Positions 6,452 to 56,860 of a stretch of 56,860 bases of DNA are shown here, one piece after another. Made by a program: the position numbers and the translations under genes. Location of the stretch: NCBI GenBank assembly GCA_030917925.1, contig JAUPTV010000034.1:1-56860 (forward strand), written 5' to 3'. Within the stretch, counting starts at the first letter, position 1. Each line of letters starts with the position of its first letter. Source of the DNA: Pseudomonadota bacterium (GTDB lineage Bacteria > Pseudomonadota > Gammaproteobacteria > Competibacterales > Competibacteraceae). Under the pieces are notes generated by a model. That model ran no database searches. It was not told the origin of the DNA and was given only the letters and a program-made list of their open reading frames with translations.

Positions 6452-8278
6452 TCATCCAGCCGACCTGAGCAGCAGGCACAACTTCCGGGCCAGTTCAATC
6501 TTATGGTAAGGCTTGGTCAGCACGTCAACGCCTTCCGTGATCCGGCCATCGCCCACCAGCGCATGTTCCGTATAGCCCGAAGTAAACAGCACGGGTAGAC
6601 CGGGGTGGCGACGTTGCGCCTCAGCGGCCAGTTGCACCCCATCCATATCGCCGGGCAGCACGATGTCGGTAAACAGGAGATCGATGTCCGGCGTGGCATC
6701 CAGAATTTGTAGGGCCATAGCCGCTGTACCGGCCTGGCGAACGGCATAATTCAGTCGTTCCAGCGCCGCTACGGCAAACAACCGGACGTTGGCGTCATCT
6801 TCAACGACCAGAATGAGTTCACCCTGCCCCTGAAGGTGCATATCGGATGCCGAAGGTTCGGTCGGCGTGTTCACATCCTGATATTCGATTCGGGGTAGAT
6901 ATAACTGCACATTAGCGCCCCGGCCCGGTTCGCTATCAATGGTGATATGGCCACCGGACTGCTTGACCAGGCCGTAGACCATGCTCAGACCCAGACCACT
7001 GCCCCGTCCGGCATCCTTGGTGCTGAAAAACGGTTCGAAGGCGTGTTCCAGCACGTCCCGGGACATGCCCGATCCGGTATCCCGAACCGCCAGCATCACA
7101 TAGGGGCCAGGCCGCACGTCTTCCTGATACAGGGCGACTTGGGCTTCATCCAGCAGGACGTTCGCCGTTTCTATCAACAGTCGGCCACCGCGCGGCATGG
7201 CGTCACGCGCGTTGATGACCAGATTAAGGAGCGCGTTCTCAATTTGGCCAGGATCCACCAGCGTCATGGCCAGGTTGGTCGATAGCGCTTTGTCAACACG
7301 GATGGCCGAACCCAGTGTGCGCTGCATCAAATCCAGCATTCCCAACACCAGTTGATTCAGATGAGTCGGTTGCGCCAGTAAGGGCTGGCGGCGGGCGAAC
7401 GCCAGCAATCGTCGGCTGAGATTCGCGCCCCGGTCGACCGATTTCAGCGCCTGCTGCGTCAGATCCAGCAACCGGGGCTGAGCGGTCAGTTGTTCGTGGA
7501 GCAGTTCCAGATTGCCCATGATGACCGCAAGCAGGTTATTAAAATCATGGGCAATGCCGCCTGTGAGCTGGCCAATGGCCTGCATCTTTTGCGCCTGGCG
7601 GAATTGGGAGTCAGCCTGTTTGCGTTCGGTGACATCGCGGACGACGACCATCGTGGCGAGTTTGTCATCGAAGCGCACATCCAGGGGTACGGTGCGGGAT
7701 TCGAACCAGCGTGGCCCCGAACGGGTCTTTAGCTCGTACTCGGCGACCTGAATCTGCTGGATCTCCAGTGCGCCCCGAATCAGGTCGAGAAAGAACTCCG
7801 CTTTGTCCGGGTCATGGACGTCATGGAGTCGTTTGCCCTTGAGACAGGTCGAGGTGGTCAAGGATCCATTGCGCGGGTCGGCCAGTACATCGCAATAGAG
7901 ACCGTTCTCATCGACGATGAAGACCCGGTCGGGCAGGGCATGGATCACGGCCCGCAAGCGCGCTTCGCTGGTGCGCAGGGCGTTTTCCGTCTGGCGGCGC
8001 ACGTCGATTTCGCGTAGTAGCGTCGCATTAGCAGTGGCCAAAGCCCTGGCGCGGCGCTGGGCGATGAAGTAGGCGCTCACCAGCAGGCTCAGCATCGTCA
8101 ATGACAGGCCCCAGACCAGAATATCCGCCAGTAGCATCGTGGGGGAGTGTGATTCCATAAGGAACGTCAGAGCCGTACCGATGGCAATGAAGCCCGGCAC
8201 GGTTATCAATGGGTGGGAAAGCAGCCATTGGCGTATCAGCGTGGGCGGCTTGACCGGTTCGGCGGAGGATATGTCCAT
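6452..8278 (-). CDS. Membrane-bound hybrid sensor histidine kinase (PAS, kinase, receiver)
   Basis: This has 608 residues. Two membrane spans lie near 22-41 and 49-73 with a very short loop between them, so there is almost no periplasmic sensor. A coiled linker leads to a PAS domain at about 103-222. The HisKA domain carries [11 protein letters not shown] with the phospho-histidine at 244. The ATPase domain shows [10 protein letters not shown] (352-361), DTGSGM and GSGLGL. A C-terminal receiver has Asp538 in FTDIVLPGD. This is the family of blue-light and nitrogen-type hybrid kinases without an output domain. It is strikingly similar to the kinase at 8432-11095 from the PAS domain onward, which points to a gene duplication. 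The signal and final target are unknown. Confidence 0.92.
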
Positions 8279-8431
8279 ATTGTTATTGTTATGGGTACAG
8301 GCTAACAGTGGGCCTTGATAAAGAACGGGAACGCTTGCGCCCTACTCGTTCAGTCAGACTATCGGTATCAGTATAGTCATTGCTGATAAAAAGCCCGGAG
8401 TATTGCATGATTTTTGTTTTAGTCGATTTCA

Positions 8432-11095
8432 TCAAGGTTTAGCGTGCCGATTGAGCAAGGTGCGCAGCTTGTTGCCGAGTTCAGCCTTGCGATAAGGTTT
8501 AGTCAGCATTTCCACACCGTCGGATAACTCACGGCCGCTGACCAGCATGTGTTCGGTATAGCCGGAAGTGAACAGGACCGGCAATCCAGGACGGCGGTGC
8601 ATCGCCTCGGTGGCCAGTTGCACGCCATCCCGGTCGCCGGGCAGCACAATATCGGTAAAGAGCAGGGCAATCTCGGGGTTGGCGTCAAGAATTTCCAGGG
8701 CATGTTCTGCGTCGCCGGCTTGATAGGTTTGATAGCCGAGACTGTGCAGAGCCTTGACCGCGAACAGGCACACATCGACGTCATCTTCAACGACCAGAAT
8801 CAGCTCGCCGCGCCCCTTGTACACTGGGCTGGCGTCGGATGTTTCCAGTGCGGCCGGTGCGGTCGTGTGAATGCGCGGCAGGTACAGTCGCACCGTGGCA
8901 CCACGGCCCAGTTCGCTGTAAATGGAAACATGGCCCCCGGACTGTTTGACCAGACCGTAAACGATGCTTAATCCCAGACCACTGCCTTTGCTGGTTTCCT
9001 TGGTGGTGAAAAAGGGTTCAAACGCCCGTTCCAGCACCTCGGGGGCCATGCCCATGCCGGAATCGCTGACCGTTAACACCACATAGGCACCCGGCTGTAC
9101 GTCCTGATGGGTGGCGGCATAGTCTTCATCGAGGAAGGCATTCGTGGTTTCCAGCACCAGTCGTCCGGACTGCGGCATGGCGTCGCGGGCGTTGATGACC
9201 AGATTAAGCAGGCTGCTTTCGAACTGGTCAGGATCGACGAAGGTTTGCTCCAAGTCCGGCGCGAGGAGCGTGTGAATCTGGATATTAGCCCCCAGGGTGC
9301 GGCGAATCAGTTCGATCATGCCCAGCACCAGCTTGTTCAAATCGGTCGGTTGCGCTTGCAGGGGTTGGCGGCGGGCGAAGATCAACAGCCGCCGGGTCAG
9401 GGCTGCGCCCCGGTCGACGGCGCGCAGGGCTTGCAGCGCCAGTTCGTACAAGCGGGGATGCACCACCAGTTGCTCATGCAACAGTTCCAGATTGCCCATG
9501 ATAACCGCAAGCAGATTGTTGAAATCATGAGCAATACCGCCGGTGAGTTGACCGATGGCCTGCATTTTCTGGGCTTGACGAAGTTGAGTTTCCGCCTGTT
9601 TGCGCTTGGTGATGTCGCGGGCGACCACAATCGCAGCGCGTTTTTCCACCGGTGGGCTTTCCGGCAGATCAAACAAGGGCAGTTGCGCCCGATTAACCGT
9701 GGTCAAGCGCTGATCAATCATGGGGATATCCAGCGGCGCGGTGCGTGATTCAAACCAGCGTAATCCCGATGTAGTGGATAGCTCGTATTCAGCGACTTGA
9801 ATTTGTTGAGTCTCCAGCGCCCGGTGGATGACCTCGATAAAAAACTTCGCCATTTCCGGGGAATGAACCTCACTCAGCAGTTTGCCGCGAACCGGAATCA
9901 TCCCGGATACGGTGTTCGCCGGTGGTTGGCCCGGAAGCTCTCGGCGTGAACGGAGTTCCTGACGGGGGGCCTCCGCCGGAAATCGTCCAGGAACCGGCGT
10001 GATTCGGTGGGTATCCCACTCCCGTCCGGCTGCGAGAACCTCACGATAGCGGCCTTCAGCGTCGAGCACGAACACCAGATCCGGAATGGCCCGGGTCATG
10101 GCGCGGATGCGCGCTTCGCTTTCCCGCAAGGCTTTTTCCGTCTGGTTACGAAATTCGATTTCCTGCGTCAGGGAGGCATTGGTTATGGCCAATTGCGTGG
10201 TGCGTTCAGCAACCCGTTGTTCCAGCAGGGCGTTGGCATCGCGCAATTCCGCCTGCGCCTGTTGAATCTTGGCGCGCATGTGGTTGAAAGAGCGGGTGAG
10301 TTCGCCCAGTTCGTCATTACGACTGATCGGGAGATCATCGGTCGGGTAGCCGCCTTCCAGGCGTCGGGTGGCCTCGGCCAGCGCAGCGATGGGGCGGGCC
10401 AGGGACCGGGCGCGGTTTCTGGACATGAGGTAGGCGACGATCAGCATCGCCAGCGCGGTGATGATCAGGATCACGGTGGTCGCGATGCTGGCGATCCAGG
10501 CCGCCTCTGCGTCCTTTTCCAAGCGGGCTTCAGCCTCGGTGACCATAATCGTCGCCAGGGCAATGACGCGATTGGCCAATGGATCGGCGTCCAGGGCCAT
10601 GAGTTGTTGGGCAAGGGGATCGACCGGTTCGGTTGCGGCTTGCGGGAAATGTTCAGGAGTCGCTGCGGTCTGCACCCGTTTTTGGACGGTCTGTAATTTG
10701 GTTAACAGCGCTTGCAACTCCTGGAGGCGCTCTGGAACGCAGGCTTTCCTGGACAGACCCTGGCACTGTTTCATGACGGCGACGGCGGGCTGAATGTCCT
10801 GATCCCAGGCCTGGCGCCAGTCTTGTAAAAAGTGCGGATCGCCCAGACTGACCCAGCCGCGCAGGCTGGCCATGGAATACTGCACCCCGGCCAGGACTCG
10901 CAAGGAAGCCTGGGCCATGGGCGCGCCTTCATGCGCCAGCAGCACGATCCGGCTGCGCAGTTCGTAGGTGGCAACCAGGGCGGCCAGCAGGATGACGATG
11001 CCAACCAGCGCTACGGACAGGTGGGATAGCAGCAGTTGTCGGTGCAGCGGGCGTTCTTTCACCGCACGTTCAGCATTCCGGGGAAGGGGATTCAT
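8432..11095 (-). CDS. Membrane-bound hybrid sensor histidine kinase (HAMP, PAS, kinase, receiver)
   Basis: This has 887 residues. The first membrane span is at about 22-44 and the second at about 201-224. Between them is a roughly 155-residue, mostly helical periplasmic region resembling the four-helix sensor of chemoreceptors. A HAMP domain (about 225-280) and a coiled coil follow, then a PAS domain (about 325-495) with a proline-rich insertion at 366-400. The kinase core shows [11 protein letters not shown] with the phospho-histidine at 523, [10 protein letters not shown] and GSGLGL. A receiver with FTDIVLPGD closes the protein. It starts nine bases after the receiver gene at 11105, so the two are probably co-transcribed. 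The core is a paralogue of the next kinase downstream. Confidence 0.92.
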   Translation of the reverse strand: MNPLPRNAERAVKERPLHRQLLLSHLSVALVGIVILLAALVATYELRSRIVLLAHEGAPMAQASLRVLAGVQYSMASLRGWVSLGDPHFLQDWRQAWDQDIQPAVAVMKQCQGLSRKACVPERLQELQALLTKLQTVQKRVQTAATPEHFPQAATEPVDPLAQQLMALDADPLANRVIALATIMVTEAEARLEKDAEAAWIASIATTVILIITALAMLIVAYLMSRNRARSLARPIAALAEATRRLEGGYPTDDLPISRNDELGELTRSFNHMRAKIQQAQAELRDANALLEQRVAERTTQLAITNASLTQEIEFRNQTEKALRESEARIRAMTRAIPDLVFVLDAEGRYREVLAAGREWDTHRITPVPGRFPAEAPRQELRSRRELPGQPPANTVSGMIPVRGKLLSEVHSPEMAKFFIEVIHRALETQQIQVAEYELSTTSGLRWFESRTAPLDIPMIDQRLTTVNRAQLPLFDLPESPPVEKRAAIVVARDITKRKQAETQLRQAQKMQAIGQLTGGIAHDFNNLLAVIMGNLELLHEQLVVHPRLYELALQALRAVDRGAALTRRLLIFARRQPLQAQPTDLNKLVLGMIELIRRTLGANIQIHTLLAPDLEQTFVDPDQFESSLLNLVINARDAMPQSGRLVLETTNAFLDEDYAATHQDVQPGAYVVLTVSDSGMGMAPEVLERAFEPFFTTKETSKGSGLGLSIVYGLVKQSGGHVSIYSELGRGATVRLYLPRIHTTAPAALETSDASPVYKGRGELILVVEDDVDVCLFAVKALHSLGYQTYQAGDAEHALEILDANPEIALLFTDIVLPGDRDGVQLATEAMHRRPGLPVLFTSGYTEHMLVSGRELSDGVEMLTKPYRKAELGNKLRTLLNRHAKP

Positions 11096-21637: not shown

Positions 21638-21836
21638 CTGGTTCTCCTTGGGCAAGGCGCATCGGCGTCGTTCAGAGCGCCGGTCGCTGGTCACGAATCC
21701 GGCGGCGAGAATCCGGGATTGACCCGGTATGAGTCTCTCTACTCATAATAACCCATACATCGGTCACACGATAATCGGCTGTACAGGTTAGCGGATTTTC
21801 CAGTTAAAGTTGCAGGAACGTGATTAGGATTTATTG

Positions 21837-23348
21837 ATGAGTGATCAAGCAGCGAAGCTTGGCGGGAAAGCGTCGCCATTGGCCTATCGTCGGGCACCGT
21901 TCAAAACCTGGCTGTATATGGTCGGCGTATTGCTGATTCTGTTCAGCGCGACCTTGCTGCCGCCGATTGCGGTGGCCTGGTATTACGATGGTTACGCGGT
22001 GATGTTGCCTTTCGCCCAGACGCTCGGGGCGTCGCTGGGGCTGGGGCTGATTTGCTGGTTGCCGTTGCGCCGGTTTAAGGTCGATTTGCGCAATCGCGAT
22101 GGGTTTATCCTGGTGGTGGCGTTCTGGGTCTTGTCCTCGCTGTTGGGCGCATTACCATTCATCCTGTCAGATCAGCCGCAAGTGCGTTTTGTCGATGCCG
22201 TGTTTGAAACCGTTTCCGGTTTGACCACGACCGGCGCTTCGGTGCTGATCGGCCTCGACCATTTACCCAGAGCCATCCTCTACTACCGTGCGCAACTACA
22301 CTTTTTGGGGGGCATTGGCATTGTGGTGCTGGCGGTGGCGCTGTTGCCGATGTTGGGGATTGGTGGGATGCAGCTCTATCGGGCGTCAACGCCTGGCCCG
22401 ATGAAGGATGAGAAGCTGACGCCCCGGATTACCGAGACCGCCAAGAACCTGTGGTTTATTTACGTTGGACTGAACATTGCCTGCTTTCTGGCGTACTGGT
22501 TGGCGGGGATGAGTCCGTTCGATGCCATCTGCTACAGCTTTACCACGATTGCCTTGGGCGGTTTTGCGCCCCATGACGCCAGCATCGGCTATTTCCAGAA
22601 TCCGTTGTTTGAGTGGATCACGATATTTTTCATGCTGGTGGCGATGGTCAATTTTGCCCTGTATTTTCTGGCGTGGCGCGTGCGCAGTCTTAGTGCGGTG
22701 TTTCTGGATGCTGAATTCCGGTTTTGTATGCAGGTGGTGGCTGGCATTGTGGCACTGGCCTGTCTGCATCTTTACTTGAATGAAACGTCATGGTGGGATT
22801 CCATTCACTTAGGGACTTTTCAGGGTATTTCGATTATTACCGGCACGGGTTTAGTCACGGCAGGTTATCCAGCTCACGAGAGCTGGCCAGCATTCGTTCC
22901 CCTGCTATTGTTGCTGGGCAGTTTTTTCGGTGGTTGCGTCGGTTCAACCTGTGGCGGCATCAAGGCCATTCGGTTTTTGTTGCTGTATAAGCAGAGCGTG
23001 CGTGAAACCCGCTTGCTGGTTCGGCCCACGGCGCAGATTTCAGTGAAGCTGAACGATCATCCGGTTCCTGATCGGGTGATGCAGGCAGTTTGGGGATTTT
23101 ATTATCTGTACATTTTCAGCTATTGCGCATTCTCGTTGGCGCTGGCGGCTACCGGCGTCGATTTGGTGACGGCGTTCGGCACGACAGCGGCCTGTCTGAA
23201 TAATATGGGCGTGGGATTAGGCGATACGGCGTCGGGATTCAGTACGCTTAATGACACGGCAACCTGGTTGATGTCGTTAGCCATGTTGGTGGGACGGCTG
23301 GAAATCTTTCCGTTGTTGTTGCTGTTTTTGCCAGATTTTTGGAGATAA
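21837..23348 (+). CDS. trkH: TrkH-family potassium uptake channel subunit, copy 1
   Basis: A 503-residue membrane protein with the four pore-loop repeats of TrkH/KtrB. Filter segments are SGLTTTGASVL, TTIALGGFA, TGTGLVTAG and TTAACLNNMGVGL. GSFFGGCVGSTCGGIKAIR precedes the last repeat. It works with a TrkA-type gating ring, which is not in this window. AGGA lies seven bases before ATG 21837. A second, very similar trkH follows after two bases. Confidence 0.93.
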   Translation: MSDQAAKLGGKASPLAYRRAPFKTWLYMVGVLLILFSATLLPPIAVAWYYDGYAVMLPFAQTLGASLGLGLICWLPLRRFKVDLRNRDGFILVVAFWVLSSLLGALPFILSDQPQVRFVDAVFETVSGLTTTGASVLIGLDHLPRAILYYRAQLHFLGGIGIVVLAVALLPMLGIGGMQLYRASTPGPMKDEKLTPRITETAKNLWFIYVGLNIACFLAYWLAGMSPFDAICYSFTTIALGGFAPHDASIGYFQNPLFEWITIFFMLVAMVNFALYFLAWRVRSLSAVFLDAEFRFCMQVVAGIVALACLHLYLNETSWWDSIHLGTFQGISIITGTGLVTAGYPAHESWPAFVPLLLLLGSFFGGCVGSTCGGIKAIRFLLLYKQSVRETRLLVRPTAQISVKLNDHPVPDRVMQAVWGFYYLYIFSYCAFSLALAATGVDLVTAFGTTAACLNNMGVGLGDTASGFSTLNDTATWLMSLAMLVGRLEIFPLLLLFLPDFWR

Positions 23349-23350
23349 AT

Positions 23351-24856
23351 GTGGTTAAGTCAGGAATAGCTACTGATAAAACTTGGCTGGCGGTTCAGCA
23401 ACGTTCGCCCCTCAAGACCTCGCTGTACATGGTGGGCGTATTACTGATCCTGTTTAGTGTAACCCAGTTGCCACCGATGGCCGTAGCGTGGTTTTACGAT
23501 GGTTATGATGTGGTTTTACCGTTCGCCCATGCCATGGGGGTCATGTTGGCACTGGGGCTGCTGTGCTGGTTGCCGGTCTGTCGGTTTAAGCCAGAACTGC
23601 GTAATCGGGATGGTTTTGTCGTGGTAGTGGCGTTCTGGTTTTTGTTGTCACTGATTGGCGCGTTGCCGTTTATGCTATCGGATAATCCGCACATGCCATT
23701 GGTGGATGCGGTGTTTGAGACCGTTTCTGGTCTGACAACGACCGGTGGTACGGTGCTGTCAGGTCTCGATACCATGCCCAAGGCTATCTTGTATTACCGG
23801 GCGCAACTGAATTTCCTGGGCGGTATGGGCATTGTGGTGCTGGCTGTGGCTTTGCTACCCATGCTGGGCATCGGCGGGATGCAGCTTTATAAGGCAGAAA
23901 CGCCAGGACCGATGAAGGATGAAAAGCTCACTCCACGGATTACCGAGACCGCTAAAAACCTGTGGTTCATCTACGTCGGTTTAAATGTGATCTGTACACT
24001 GTCGTATTGGGCAGCAGGGATGAATTTTTTTGACGCCATCTGCCATAGTTTTGCCACATTAGCGCTAGGTGGCTTTTCTACACATGATGCCAGTATCGGC
24101 TATTTTAACAGTCCGACTATCGAACTAATGGCGGGGTTTTTCTCGCTGGTGGCCGCAGTCAATTTCGCGCTGTTTTTCCTGGCTTGGCGTTCCCGTAGTC
24201 TCAGCGCTATTTTCCGGGATGCCGAATTCAGATTCTGCATGACGGTGATGGGTGGGATTATCGCTATGACCTGTATTTTCCTGTATTACAGCGGAAAATT
24301 TCCATTGTGGGAGTCCTTTTACCACGGCTTTTTTCAAGCAGCATCGGTGATTACCGACAACGGACTAGGAACGATTGGTTATCCAGGAGACTGGCCGATC
24401 TTTGTGCCGTTGTTGTTGTTGCTGGGCAGTTTCTTCGGCGGTTGTGTCGGTTCGACCTGCGGTGGCATCAAGGCGATTCGCTTTCTTTTGTTATACAAGC
24501 AGAGCGTGCGCGAAGCCCGGTTGCTGATTCGTCCATCCGCGCAGATCGCGGTTAAGCTGGGCAACCATCCCATTCCCGACCGAGTGATGCAAGCGGTGTG
24601 GGGGTTTTATTATTTGTATATCTTTAGTTATTGCTTCTTCTCGTTGGCGCTGACGGCGACCGGCGTAGATATGGTGACGGCGTTTGGCACCACAGCGGCG
24701 TGCTTGAACAATATGGGCATTGGATTAGGTGAAACAGCGGTCGGATTCGGTCCGTTGAACGATACGGCGACCTGGTTAATGTCGCTGGCGATGTTAGTTG
24801 GACGGCTGGAAGTATTTCCATTGCTGCTGCTGTTTTTGCCGGATTTCTGGAAGTAA
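23351..24856 (+). CDS. trkH: TrkH-family potassium uptake channel subunit, copy 2
   Basis: A 501-residue paralogue of the preceding gene, nearly colinear, so a tandem duplication. Filter segments are SGLTTTGGTVL, ATLALGGFS, TDNGLGTIG and TTAACLNNMGIGL; the third differs from copy 1 (TGTGLVTAG) in polarity. I chose GTG 23351 because GGAG lies six bases upstream; the TTG at 23339 lies inside copy 1. The two genes are separated by two bases and must share a transcript. Different kinetics or ion preference is an inference. Confidence 0.9.
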   Translation: MVKSGIATDKTWLAVQQRSPLKTSLYMVGVLLILFSVTQLPPMAVAWFYDGYDVVLPFAHAMGVMLALGLLCWLPVCRFKPELRNRDGFVVVVAFWFLLSLIGALPFMLSDNPHMPLVDAVFETVSGLTTTGGTVLSGLDTMPKAILYYRAQLNFLGGMGIVVLAVALLPMLGIGGMQLYKAETPGPMKDEKLTPRITETAKNLWFIYVGLNVICTLSYWAAGMNFFDAICHSFATLALGGFSTHDASIGYFNSPTIELMAGFFSLVAAVNFALFFLAWRSRSLSAIFRDAEFRFCMTVMGGIIAMTCIFLYYSGKFPLWESFYHGFFQAASVITDNGLGTIGYPGDWPIFVPLLLLLGSFFGGCVGSTCGGIKAIRFLLLYKQSVREARLLIRPSAQIAVKLGNHPIPDRVMQAVWGFYYLYIFSYCFFSLALTATGVDMVTAFGTTAACLNNMGIGLGETAVGFGPLNDTATWLMSLAMLVGRLEVFPLLLLFLPDFWK

Positions 24857-47844: not shown

Positions 47845-48378
47845 TTACCGCTTGAGATTGAAATCCTCTTTGTCTTTCTCACCTTCGCTGCGGTACCAGC
47901 CGGCTAACATTTTGCCATCGTCAGTGATTTTCCATTCCAGATCGCCGCGACTTTCTTCCCCTTTGCCGACCTTCGGGCGCTCGAACCATTTAGCTTTGAT
48001 CGTGTTTCCTTCGATTACACCCTCGAACTTTCCTTCTTGGGTAACGTCATCATCATCTTTGTACTGGTAGGTACCCGTAATCTTCTTCCCCGTTTGTTCG
48101 ATCACAATATCGTCATAATCATTAGAAGACCACTTTCCGCTGAGGTCGACGGCTGGCGCAGCGGCGGGTTTGGCCGGTTCAGGGGCAGGGGCTACAGCGG
48201 CGGGTTTGGCCGGTTCAGGGGCAGGGGCTACAGCGGCGGGTTTAGCCGGTTCAGGGGCAGGGGCTACAGCCGCTGGGGGCGTAGCGGCTAGAGCAGCGGG
48301 CGGGGTTTCACCAGTCCCCGCTGCATATACTGTACTGCAAGCGACCAGGATACTGATCGTACTCAACTTCTTTAGCAT
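47845..48378 (-). CDS. Exported protein with three PAP repeats and a beta-rich C-terminal domain
   Basis: This has 177 residues. A signal peptide (1 to about 20) is followed by a proline-alanine linker holding three exact 12-residue repeats AVAPAPEPAKPA. After that comes a beta-rich domain: LSGKWSSNDYDDIVIEQTGKKITGTY, GKFEGVIEGNTIKAKWFE and DGKMLAGWYRSEGEKD. It resembles a small lipocalin-like or META-like barrel, but I cannot name a family. AAGGAG precedes ATG 48378. The linker may span a cell-wall or protein surface. Confidence 0.75.
   Translation of the reverse strand: MLKKLSTISILVACSTVYAAGTGETPPAALAATPPAAVAPAPEPAKPAAVAPAPEPAKPAAVAPAPEPAKPAAAPAVDLSGKWSSNDYDDIVIEQTGKKITGTYQYKDDDDVTQEGKFEGVIEGNTIKAKWFERPKVGKGEESRGDLEWKITDDGKMLAGWYRSEGEKDKEDFNLKR
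48161..48268. repeat. Tandem 36-bp repeat, three copies, within the PAP gene
   Basis: Copies at 48161-48196, 48197-48232 and 48233-48268 differ by a single base. Each encodes one AVAPAPEPAKPA unit. Near-identity and in-frame length suggest recent expansion and possible copy-number change among strains. Confidence 0.9.
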
Positions 48379-54197: not shown

Positions 54198-55070
54198 TCA
54201 ATCGAGATAGAGGTTGTCACGGGCGCGTTTGGCCCGCTGGAAGGTGGCCAGCACCACATCATGGTCATCGGCGCGAATCGATTTCGCCAGATGTTCCAGG
54301 TCCGCCACGAAGAGCGCAATCATTTCCAGCAACTGGTCACGGTTGGCAACACAGATGTCGTGCCACATCTGCGGGTCGCTGGAGGCGATCCGGGTGAAGT
54401 CGCGGAAGCCGCCAGCAGCATAGCGGAAAATTTCGGCCCGGTCGTCGAGTCGCGCCAGGGTATCAACCAGCGTGTAGGCCAGCATGTGCGGTAAATGACT
54501 GGTCGCGGCCAGTACCGCATCATGGTGGCGCACGCCCATGTCCACGACCTCAGCGCCAGTGATTTCCCACATCCGGCGAATGAGTTGGTGCGCGATGGCA
54601 GACGTTTCTGCCAGGGGTGTCAGAATCACCCGCCGCCGCTGGAACAGGGTAGCGAACGAGGCTTCAACGCCGCTTTGCTCAGTGCCAGCGATGGGATGGC
54701 CGGGGACGAAATGTGGCGGAATATAGCCATAGACCCGCTCGACATCGGCCACGACACTGCCTTTGGCGCTACCGGCGTCGGTCAACACCGCATCGGGTTC
54801 CAGATGCGGGGCGATGACCCGCAATACCGCCGCCATCGCGCCCAGTGGTACGGCCAGCAGCACCACATCCGCGCCCGTCACCGCTTGCGCCGGATCAGTC
54901 ACATAGCGGTCGATCACACCCAGCCGCACTGCCGCCTGTAAATTAGCTTCGCCGCGCCCGCAGCCAATCACTTCGCCGACTTCACCGGCTTCTCGCAAAG
55001 CGCGGGCCAGCGAGCCGCCAATCAGGCCGACCCCGATGATGCATAAACGCCGAATCAGAGGTTGCGTCAT
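54198..55070 (-). CDS. tyrA: Prephenate (or arogenate) dehydrogenase
   Basis: A 290-residue enzyme that oxidises prephenate to 4-hydroxyphenylpyruvate for tyrosine. An N-terminal Rossmann motif CIIGVGLIGGSLARAL is followed by the catalytic-histidine loop FVPGHPIAGTEQSG and HHDAVLAATSHLPHMLAYTLVD. No chorismate mutase domain is fused. It starts seven bases past the hisC stop, so hisC and tyrA form an operon. Confidence 0.93.
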   Translation of the reverse strand: MTQPLIRRLCIIGVGLIGGSLARALREAGEVGEVIGCGRGEANLQAAVRLGVIDRYVTDPAQAVTGADVVLLAVPLGAMAAVLRVIAPHLEPDAVLTDAGSAKGSVVADVERVYGYIPPHFVPGHPIAGTEQSGVEASFATLFQRRRVILTPLAETSAIAHQLIRRMWEITGAEVVDMGVRHHDAVLAATSHLPHMLAYTLVDTLARLDDRAEIFRYAAGGFRDFTRIASSDPQMWHDICVANRDQLLEMIALFVADLEHLAKSIRADDHDVVLATFQRAKRARDNLYLD

Positions 55071-55077
55071 GGTCAGG

Positions 55078-56202
55078 TCAGCCCTTGAGGATGTCGCTCA
55101 GTGCGTCAATGCAGCGGGCATTTTCCGCCGCCGTACCGATGCTGATGCGCAGGTAATCGGGTAAATCGTAGTTATCGACGGGCCGAACGATCACGCCGCG
55201 TTTGAGCAGTTCCAGAAACACCTCCCGCCCTGGTCGGCCCACGTCCACGCACAGGAAATTGCCGACCGAGGGTAGCCAGCGCAACGGCCACTGGCGGCAA
55301 GCGTCGAGGAATTGCTGCATACCGGCGTCATTCAGCGCCCGACTGTGTTCCAGATGGCTGATATCATCCAGCGCCGCTGCCGCTGCAACCAGCGCCAAGC
55401 TGTTGACATTGAAGGGCTGGCGAACCCGGTTCAACAGATCAGCGGCCTGGGGATGGGAAACGGCGTAACCGACCCGCAAGCCGGCCAGGCCGTAAGCCTT
55501 GGAGAAGGTGCGGGTCACGATGAGATTGGGGAAGCGCTCAAGCCAGTGCAGGGCGTTGGGGCAGTCGGCGGCGGGATCGACATATTCGCCATACGCCTCG
55601 TCCACCACGACGATGACGGATTCGGGAACCGCCGCCAGAAACGCCTCCAGTTCCGCCGTCTTCAACCAGGTGCCGGTGGGGTTATTGGGATTGGCGATGA
55701 AGACCACGCGAGTGCGGTCGTTAATCAGCGCCAGCATCGCCGCCGGATCGTGACCGTGGGGCATGGCGTGATCGTCGGGATGCGCCTTGGCGATGCGGGC
55801 TGTCGCGCCGATGGCCTGGGTGACAATGGGATAGACCGCGAAGGCGTGTTCAGAAAAAACCGCTTCATGTTCCGGGGTCAGGAACGCCCGCGCCACCAGT
55901 TCCAGCACGTCGTTCGAGCCATTGCCCAGCGTCAGCATCGCCATGGACAGTCCCAATTTTGCGGATAAGGCCGACTTGAGTTCAAAGCCATTGCCGTCGG
56001 GGTAACGGGCCAAGCCGTTTAACGCTTCACGCACGGCGGTCAGCGCTCTGGGACTGGGACCGAGCGGGTTTTCGTTCGATGCCAGTTTGATAATGTCGGT
56101 CAGGCCATATTCCCGGCGTAATTCGCTTTCCGGTTTGCCCGGCTGATAGGGTTGCAGGGTGCGAACGCCAGGGGCGGCAAGGGAGAAGAAATCGCAGGTC
56201 AT
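55078..56202 (-). CDS. hisC: Histidinol-phosphate aminotransferase (aromatic transaminase type)
   Basis: A 374-residue class I PLP enzyme. KLASNENPLGPSP, GNGSNDVLELVARAFL, NPNNPTGTW, VVDEAYGEY and the PLP lysine in TRTFSKAYGLAGLRVGY are all present. Beside tyrA and pheA it probably acts on aromatic keto acids as well as, or instead of, histidinol phosphate. The usual order in many proteobacteria is pheA-hisC-tyrA; here an AT-rich insert separates pheA from hisC. Confidence 0.93.
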   Translation of the reverse strand: MTCDFFSLAAPGVRTLQPYQPGKPESELRREYGLTDIIKLASNENPLGPSPRALTAVREALNGLARYPDGNGFELKSALSAKLGLSMAMLTLGNGSNDVLELVARAFLTPEHEAVFSEHAFAVYPIVTQAIGATARIAKAHPDDHAMPHGHDPAAMLALINDRTRVVFIANPNNPTGTWLKTAELEAFLAAVPESVIVVVDEAYGEYVDPAADCPNALHWLERFPNLIVTRTFSKAYGLAGLRVGYAVSHPQAADLLNRVRQPFNVNSLALVAAAAALDDISHLEHSRALNDAGMQQFLDACRQWPLRWLPSVGNFLCVDVGRPGREVFLELLKRGVIVRPVDNYDLPDYLRISIGTAAENARCIDALSDILKG

Positions 56203-56223
56203 GTTGAGAGTACCGTGGTGAAT

Positions 56224-56529
56224 TTAACTTTGAAATTTATCGCATTGGGTCATCGCTGGGGAGTGTTGAAATCGCCAAGACGCCAAGTTATTTAGTTCTG
56301 TAATATCACCTTGTTGGCTCCACAAGAACCCTCGAAGAACCTTTTTTATTTCTATTAATTTTTCAGATGGCCATGTTCTATCAACAACTAAAATAATTGT
56401 TCTAGGTATCAATTTTTCATTATTTAATATTTCTCTAAAAAAATTAGAAGTTGGATAAGGACCTATAACAGTCATACATTCCAGTATATAACCATCCAGT
56501 TTCCCCCAAAGAAGTTGATCAAAAAACAT
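56224..56529 (-). CDS. AT-rich hypothetical protein inserted between pheA and hisC
   Basis: This has 101 residues. The first 70 look natural (MFFDQLLWGKLDGYILECM, IVVDRTWPSEKLIEIKKV-like pattern), but the last 20 or so are written through a CCAAGACGCCAA repeat, so the protein is probably truncated. GGAG eight bases before ATG 56529 supports expression. The base composition is far more AT-rich than its neighbours, a sign of transfer. I do not recognise the family. Confidence 0.5.
   Translation of the reverse strand: MFFDQLLWGKLDGYILECMTVIGPYPTSNFFREILNNEKLIPRTIILVVDRTWPSEKLIEIKKVLRGFLWSQQGDITELNNLASWRFQHSPAMTQCDKFQS
56275..56286 (+). repeat. Left copy of CCAAGACGCCAA inverted repeat
   Basis: The 12 bases CCAAGACGCCAA are exactly complementary to TTGGCGTCTTGG at 56766-56777. 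The two copies face each other across about 480 bases of AT-rich DNA. The block between them and beyond 56529 (56530-56797) holds no gene I can support; GTGGGCTGCCGCAAAAG at 56609-56625 might be an IS end. Confidence 0.6.
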
Positions 56530-56765
56530 TTTAATTTCTCCAATATTTTGATTGAACGAATTTTTCTTTACTCATCATGTATCAATTAAAAAAATCAGCA
56601 TCCTACTAGTGGGCTGCCGCAAAAGTTTTTCGAGACATCAGTTCATTTCCCTAGTGAAGCAACCAATCCGTAGCCATTCCTACAGCTCCCTACGGTCGCT
56701 CCAATGACCGTACCGACAGAGCTAACTCCTTCCACCCGCGACCGTTATAGCCCGAGTGAGCGTTT

Positions 56766-56777
56766 TTGGCGTCTTGG
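56766..56777 (-). repeat. Right copy of CCAAGACGCCAA inverted repeat
   Basis: TTGGCGTCTTGG is the exact reverse complement of the left copy at 56275-56286. It lies 20 bases from the pheA stop codon. Together the copies bound the insertion in the aromatic operon. Confidence 0.6.
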
Positions 56778-56797
56778 TGGTTCAGCTTTTTCCCTAA

Positions 56798-56860
56798 TTA
56801 CAACACACCCTTGGGATACGACCCCAGCACCCGGAACAGACTGGCTTGATCGCGTAATTC
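56798..56860 (-). CDS. pheA: PheA (chorismate mutase/prephenate dehydratase), last 20 residues only
   Basis: The frame enters from the right edge and reads ELRDQASLFRVLGSYPKGVL then stop. The ending VLGSYPK is the conserved C-terminus of prephenate dehydratase, the ACT-domain end. Its place upstream of hisC-tyrA in the reading direction fits the known pheA-hisC-tyrA order. Too little is present to judge the rest. Confidence 0.75.
   Translation of the reverse strand, partial: ELRDQASLFRVLGSYPKGVL

Follow-up and report, generated by a model that had tools for sequence, protein, structure and literature searches.

At the right end of one contig of a draft genome, AT-rich DNA separates two amino-acid biosynthesis genes, pheA and hisC, which raises the question of where this spacer came from and whether it is an insertion in its own right or the edge of something larger. 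The window, by which we mean the whole stretch of 56,860 bases analysed here, is the entire contig C249 of a draft of 299 contigs and 4.2 Mb (completeness 98.67%, contamination 0.89%). Read on the minus strand, its right end runs from a pheA-type 3′ end through the spacer to hisC and tyrA. The pheA-type stop codon occupies positions 56798-56800 and hisC starts at 56202 (minus strand), so that the gap spans 56203-56797; a sequence-only reading of this DNA had recognised an AT-rich spacer correctly but put it at about 570 bases, whereas its length is 595. GC content was 38.5% over the spacer as a whole, 28.8% in its core (56287-56606) and 51.8% in the pheA-side part (56607-56797), compared to 57.9% for the window. 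Because the contig ends at 56860, only the last 63 coding bases of pheA (56860 down to 56798) are present. The features on which the analysis rests are as follows:

54198-55070, minus strand: tyrA (prephenate dehydrogenase), from the list of open reading frames (ORFs) and a family search
55078-56202, minus strand: hisC (aminotransferase class I and II), from the ORF list and a family search
56203-56269, minus strand: hisC leader, by eye different from the relatives' leaders examined
56224-56529, minus strand: whole ORF of 101 aa, its last part running through the ISL3 end and the 12-mer repeat into the hisC leader
56270-56286, plus strand: dispersed repeat copy on the hisC side, inverted relative to the pheA-side copy (repeat search)
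56319-56341, plus strand: solo ISL3-family terminal repeat (TCCACAAGAACCCTCGAAGAACC), inner side facing lower coordinates (repeat search)
56342-56529, minus strand: AT-rich orphan coding remnant, the first 62 residues of the ORF, GC3 13%
56607-56629, plus strand: remnant, a 23-base piece identical to C87:2485-2507, where it lies directly beside an ISL3-type terminal repeat
56766-56782, minus strand: dispersed repeat copy on the pheA side, GAACCRCCAAGACGCCAA (repeat search)
56767-56860, minus strand: third pheA 3′ tail (c3) and the sequence after its stop; the coding part, 56798-56860, is truncated where the contig ends (DNA search)

The spacer is a patchwork of foreign scraps between two amino-acid genes. 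Promoter- and terminator-like sites were no more frequent in it than in shuffled sequence, and Rfam gave two matches, both far under their gathering scores. Its RNA fold had a z-score of −2.0 (none of 20 shuffles was as low), with the 12-mer arms paired in the fold.

Three copies of the pheA tail

One full pheA was found in the genome, at C135:30818-31939, behind a gene named gyrA by eye. A DNA search with the end of this intact gene returned three good places, namely itself (c1), C135:34042-34308 (c2, 91%) and C249:56767-56860 (c3, 90%), while the other 12 matches were pieces of 17-28 bases. The pheA piece at the window edge is probably a spare copy of the gene's end, one of three in the genome. 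If so, it cautions that an incomplete gene at the edge of a contig may be a duplicated end instead of the actual gene.

The second copy comprises 267 bases and is about 91% identical to c1; c3 and c2 are 90.6% identical over 96 bases. Between c1 and c2, 21 of 237 bases differ, distributed 4/0/17 over the three codon positions and changing 2 of 78 residues (binomial p 1e-5; NG86 dN 0.011, dS 0.43), and the differences of c3 from c1 (4/63) and from c2 (3/63) all fall on third positions. With nearly all changes confined to third codon positions, the tails probably accumulated them while still part of functional pheA genes in sibling lineages, and came together here only afterwards. Over the same 237 bases, identity to 19 relatives was 77.6-82.7% for c1 and 79.3-84.4% for c2, compared to the 91% between the two copies (in this comparison the value of 42.2% for the preceding 600 bases in G024 is artefactual, the gene there being longer by one codon). 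In a tree, c1 and c2 grouped with a support of 0.90 on 237 bases; the placing of c3, on 63 bases, had a support of 0.000.

Seventeen of the 21 differences between c1 and c2 depart from the relatives' majority in c1 and four in c2. The GC3 of c2 (68%) is also nearer to that of hisC (74%) and tyrA (70%) than the GC3 of c1 (56%), a hint that c1 may be the incoming tail. The intact pheA has a GC3 below that of its relatives from about codon 20 to its end, so that no crossover point is visible. Viruses were considered as carriers, and no viral contig encoding a pheA tail was found.

A predicted restriction-modification pair between two tails

The DNA between c1 and c2 carries a methylase of 382 aa (N6_N4_Mtase, E 7e-47) and a 288-aa endonuclease, which matched the NotI family (E 4.8e-7; 29.8 bits, cut-off 22) and a PADLOC type II restriction endonuclease (E 3.3e-13). 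Together they form a predicted NotI-type type II restriction-modification (RM) pair. A methylase next to a NotI-family endonuclease is the arrangement of such systems; unlike them, the pair here is chromosomal and lies between two pheA tails, on C135 and outside the window. Relatives of the methylase at about 72% are found on plasmids. No recombinase or integrase gene was seen between c1 and c2, either in the ORF list by eye or in family searches.

Behind c2, a 72-aa gene without a clear family precedes the end of C135, where, judged by eye, there may be an IS1-like start. This stretch (L059:15392-15780), comprising the 72-aa gene, a short truncated frame and the IS1-like start, could on visual inspection be a toxin-antitoxin pair interrupted by IS1. 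Just before c2, L059:15020-15043 (C135:34020-34043) resembles what we take to be the pattern of half an integron attC site. The RM unit was rejected as an integron cassette, as the attC-like stretch is single-copy in the genome at up to 3 mismatches. On the same contig (L059:7632-11861), GyrA has 1409 aa and, judged by eye, a possible intein-type insert near the active-site region.

The pheA-hisC junction in relatives

In G004, which belongs to the same genus, the junction is tight, with a pheA-hisC gap of 46 bases (49 counting the stop codon). A single contig of that genome (C50) holds the gyrA-pheA genes of C135 and the hisC-tyrA genes of the window side by side (blastn), so that the ends of the two contigs are expected to be neighbours. 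In G005, the two halves lie on different contigs. The sequence-only reading had proposed an insertion that splits a pheA-hisC-tyrA run, and this was borne out: the run is adjacent in G004, and the small gene of the spacer was absent from the other 38 of the 39 family genomes searched.

A survey of 30 hisC loci in relatives, one of which is the window itself, covered up to 1500 bases of upstream DNA. It found pheA upstream in 14 (11 at 28-376 bases, counting the stop codon, and three at 1071-1325) and no pheA within the fetched DNA in 15. At E 1e-5, a pheA match was present in 53 of 59 genomes. Six other genomes had two matches, which were a distant paralogue (29-35%) in G015, G022, G037 and G038, two pieces at contig ends in G034 and one gene in two frames in G035. 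At this limit, which misses tails as short as c3, no second close pheA tail was detected in the other genomes; the duplication was thus seen only in this genome among the 59.

Some minor observations concern the same junction. The two pheA frames of G035 (L078, contig C349) meet near codon 289, and the duplicated tail in the present genome begins at codon 284, which may be chance or a related event. By eye, a similar frame begins immediately after the stop codon of pheA, within the gap to hisC, at four loci (L088, L089, L090 and L095, from G021, G017, G033 and G036), and shorter look-alike pieces stand behind pheA at two more (L086 and L098).

A proposed composite insertion at the pheA 3′ end

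The explanation that we favour, with a probability of roughly 0.55, is that a larger composite insertion lies at the 3′ end of pheA, of which the spacer forms the hisC-side end. The order proposed would be gyrA, intact pheA (c1), the type II RM pair, c2, the small gene with the IS1-like start, the assembly gap, c3, the spacer patchwork, hisC and tyrA, where the patchwork would combine the remnant of an orphan gene with an ISL3 end. Insertions would have occurred serially, each with a replacement tail: cargo DNA with a pheA tail would arrive from sibling lineages and undergo one crossover with the resident tail, which would leave pheA complete but with its tail swapped and would move the former tail downstream. 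The spacer would then have decayed through ISL3 or MITE insertion and deletion. The codon pattern of the tails favours recombination with sibling-lineage DNA carrying both cargo and tail over a copied target that decayed in place. Counting against the composite insertion are the lack of a clear crossover point in the GC3 of intact pheA, of a recombinase gene seen between c1 and c2, and of a second close tail in the other genomes at the limit used. We infer that c3 lies in the same chromosome as C135. If all three tails do, the end of a core biosynthetic gene would be a serial landing site for an RM pair and small modules that leave the gene unbroken, and the synonymous differences of the tails would record the sibling lineages from which they came. 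If true, this would help to explain how modules lacking an integrase reach the same address repeatedly.

The main rival is a mixture of two strains in one draft, because no read or contig connects C135 physically with the window edge, and c3 comprises only 63 coding bases, too few to tell. One strain would carry pheA with the RM insertion and two tails (C135), and the other an intact pheA followed by the 595-base spacer and then hisC (window). In that case the spacer would amount to a small patch of foreign DNA within an otherwise normal operon. We regard this as possible, if somewhat doubtful. A draft of 299 contigs, in which both contigs break off at or close to this junction, speaks for it, while the contamination of 0.89% and the finding of hisC once and of full pheA once speak against it; even so, these values leave room for a mixture because a strain variant can appear as one contig end.

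A bolder extension of the composite insertion would have the pheA end and the motif GAACCGCCAAGACGCC act as a homing address that works without an integrase, at which RM and small modules ending in a pheA tail, moving among sibling species, are added by one homologous crossover and pile up serially, each tail breaking after GACGCC. All three tails continue with 30 alignable bases ending in TGAACCRCCAAGACGCC and then with three different sequences, while seven other places carrying the motif continue with AAG, a comparison that is biased because these places were found with a query ending in CCAA or by similarity, so that copies broken after GACGCC would have gone unnoticed. Were the extension true, the common breakpoint would imply that the dispersed motif takes an active part as a junction site instead of being a passive repeat, but we consider this extension unlikely.

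Another explanation is that the RM unit copied the resident pheA tail on entry and that the copies then drifted in place in this chromosome. Insertion with a long target duplication, leaving the RM pair flanked by a long direct repeat, has been reported for RM units (Nobusato et al. 2000, as cited in passages of PMC3031569 and PMC4978471), and here the RM genes are indeed flanked by a direct repeat of 267 bases of target DNA (about 91% identical). However, the repeat does not behave as a copy of the resident target made at insertion, as the synonymous pattern points to separate working genes: a dead tail is expected to gather amino-acid changes, yet c2 differs from c1 at only 2 of 78 residues with a dS of 0.43, and only 4 of the 21 differences are off the relatives' majority in c2. 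Unlike in the reported form, the copies are about 9% apart with nearly all differences synonymous, a third copy exists, and the DNA targeted belongs to the end of a biosynthetic gene, which remains whole. Duplication in place is therefore very unlikely.

A parallel for the crossover route proposed under the composite insertion is prophage e14 in icd of E. coli, where, in the parts of PMC6379469 that describe it (citing Hill et al. 1989), the gene's 3′ end is duplicated (163 bases), the incoming DNA supplying a near-equal replacement end and the old end remaining downstream. The present locus likewise has an intact pheA, downstream tail(s) and near-equal protein ends, in keeping with a supplied replacement and a displaced end. 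It departs from e14 in its serial copies and in that neither an integrase nor a phage gene was seen between c1 and c2, so the proposed route would do without an integrase in the RM unit; the stretch from the end of C135 to the window lies outside the assembly. The system thus resembles both e14 in icd and RM long target duplication and fits neither definition fully. Within the part of the literature covered, no report of pheA as a landing site was found.

The inverted 12-mers belong to a dispersed repeat

The 12-mer CCAAGACGCCAA sits at 56275-56286 (plus strand) and 56766-56777 (minus strand), within 17-base arms that are 88% complementary. The sequence-only reading had taken these inverted copies as the bounds of the spacer; the pair is present, but as element ends it did not hold up. 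Thirteen exact copies occur genome-wide compared to one for the reversed control, so the motif is not specific to the spacer, and the pheA-side copy is part of the stretch that follows each of the three pheA tails. Among other family genomes of the sample, 7 of 24 had one or two copies and 17 had none; outside the family, the 12-mer occurred in 3 of 15 genomes, one of them with 10 copies.

Twelve fetched loci were viewed, those at C266 and C284 not being among them. The longer form GAACCGCCAAGACGCCAAG was absent at up to 2 mismatches from two of these (L005 and L006) and present with 0 or 2 mismatches in the other 10, which represent seven separate places; for this form, five shuffles of the window gave about 2 matches per shuffle at up to 5 mismatches. 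At the seven places the arm is single, except on C252, where a weaker inverted partner (3 mismatches) lies about 580 bases off with a gene between. The arms are a dispersed repeat and not ends made for this insert. That they delimit one transposon-like unit carrying the small gene is hardly credible, and we rejected it: the inverted pair does enclose 479 bases, but the ends are not element-specific, arms are single at most places seen, one arm is common to all three tails, and by eye neither a flanking direct repeat nor a transposase in the spacer was seen.

An ISL3 end and a probably truncated gene

The 23-base ISL3-type repeat was present 25 times in the genome when up to 3 mismatches were allowed, against 0 for the control. 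It was also found in 14 other genomes of 40 searched, all 14 of the same family, which corresponds by group to 15 of 25 family genomes and 0 of 15 outside. Four ISL3 transposase matches were obtained, including one on C242, and at the three where the distance was read (C116, C58 and C269) the repeat lies 14-17 bases from the end of the match to the C-terminal end of the transposase. The spacer thus carries the family's terminal repeat as an exact 23-base copy; unlike an ISL3 element or a derived MITE, it has one end only, and no partner end in the window, no transposase and no target duplication were found.

Elsewhere in this genome, seven short inverted-repeat elements of 123-174 bases share the terminal repeat (L018, L017, L012, L020, L022, L023 and L028). 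Among these fetched loci, two (L017 and L018) have identical 8-base flanks and five do not, a form that, like the repeats adjoining transposase ends, matches the ISL3 family and its MITEs.

The small gene of the sequence-only reading, described as having a good ribosome-binding site, is indeed present, with GGAG eight bases upstream of the ATG. It had also been suggested that the gene may be clipped at the left 12-mer. The ORF does read through that 12-mer and a clipped cargo gene fits, but the clip lies at the ISL3 terminal repeat, which the ORF enters from residue 63 on, ahead of the 12-mer. Since it reads into this repeat, the gene was most likely cut by an ISL3 element or MITE.

A search with the N-terminal part found no relative. 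Pfam, PADLOC, NCBIfam and PHROGs gave no family for the gene at E up to 1, and plasmids and viral contigs gave no match. Against 369 genomes of the class the gene gave, besides its own, seven weak matches (E 0.011-0.045), of which five were short 27-31-bit pieces on re-alignment, judged by eye to be chance, and two (L115 and L120) were not reproduced. The single match in a collection of genome contigs comes down to a short word shared with an unrelated Asticcacaulis protein, a PDB match (E 0.27) was discarded, and a single-sequence fold with a mean pLDDT of 49.9 was set aside.

Other repeats in the window

Two adjacent TrkH-type cation transporter genes (21834-24856) share 74% DNA identity over 1448 aligned positions, a tandem duplication, and two neighbouring hybrid histidine kinase genes (6452-11095) share 69.5% over about 1.2 kb. 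A coding tandem repeat with a unit of about 36 bases lies at 48159-48276.
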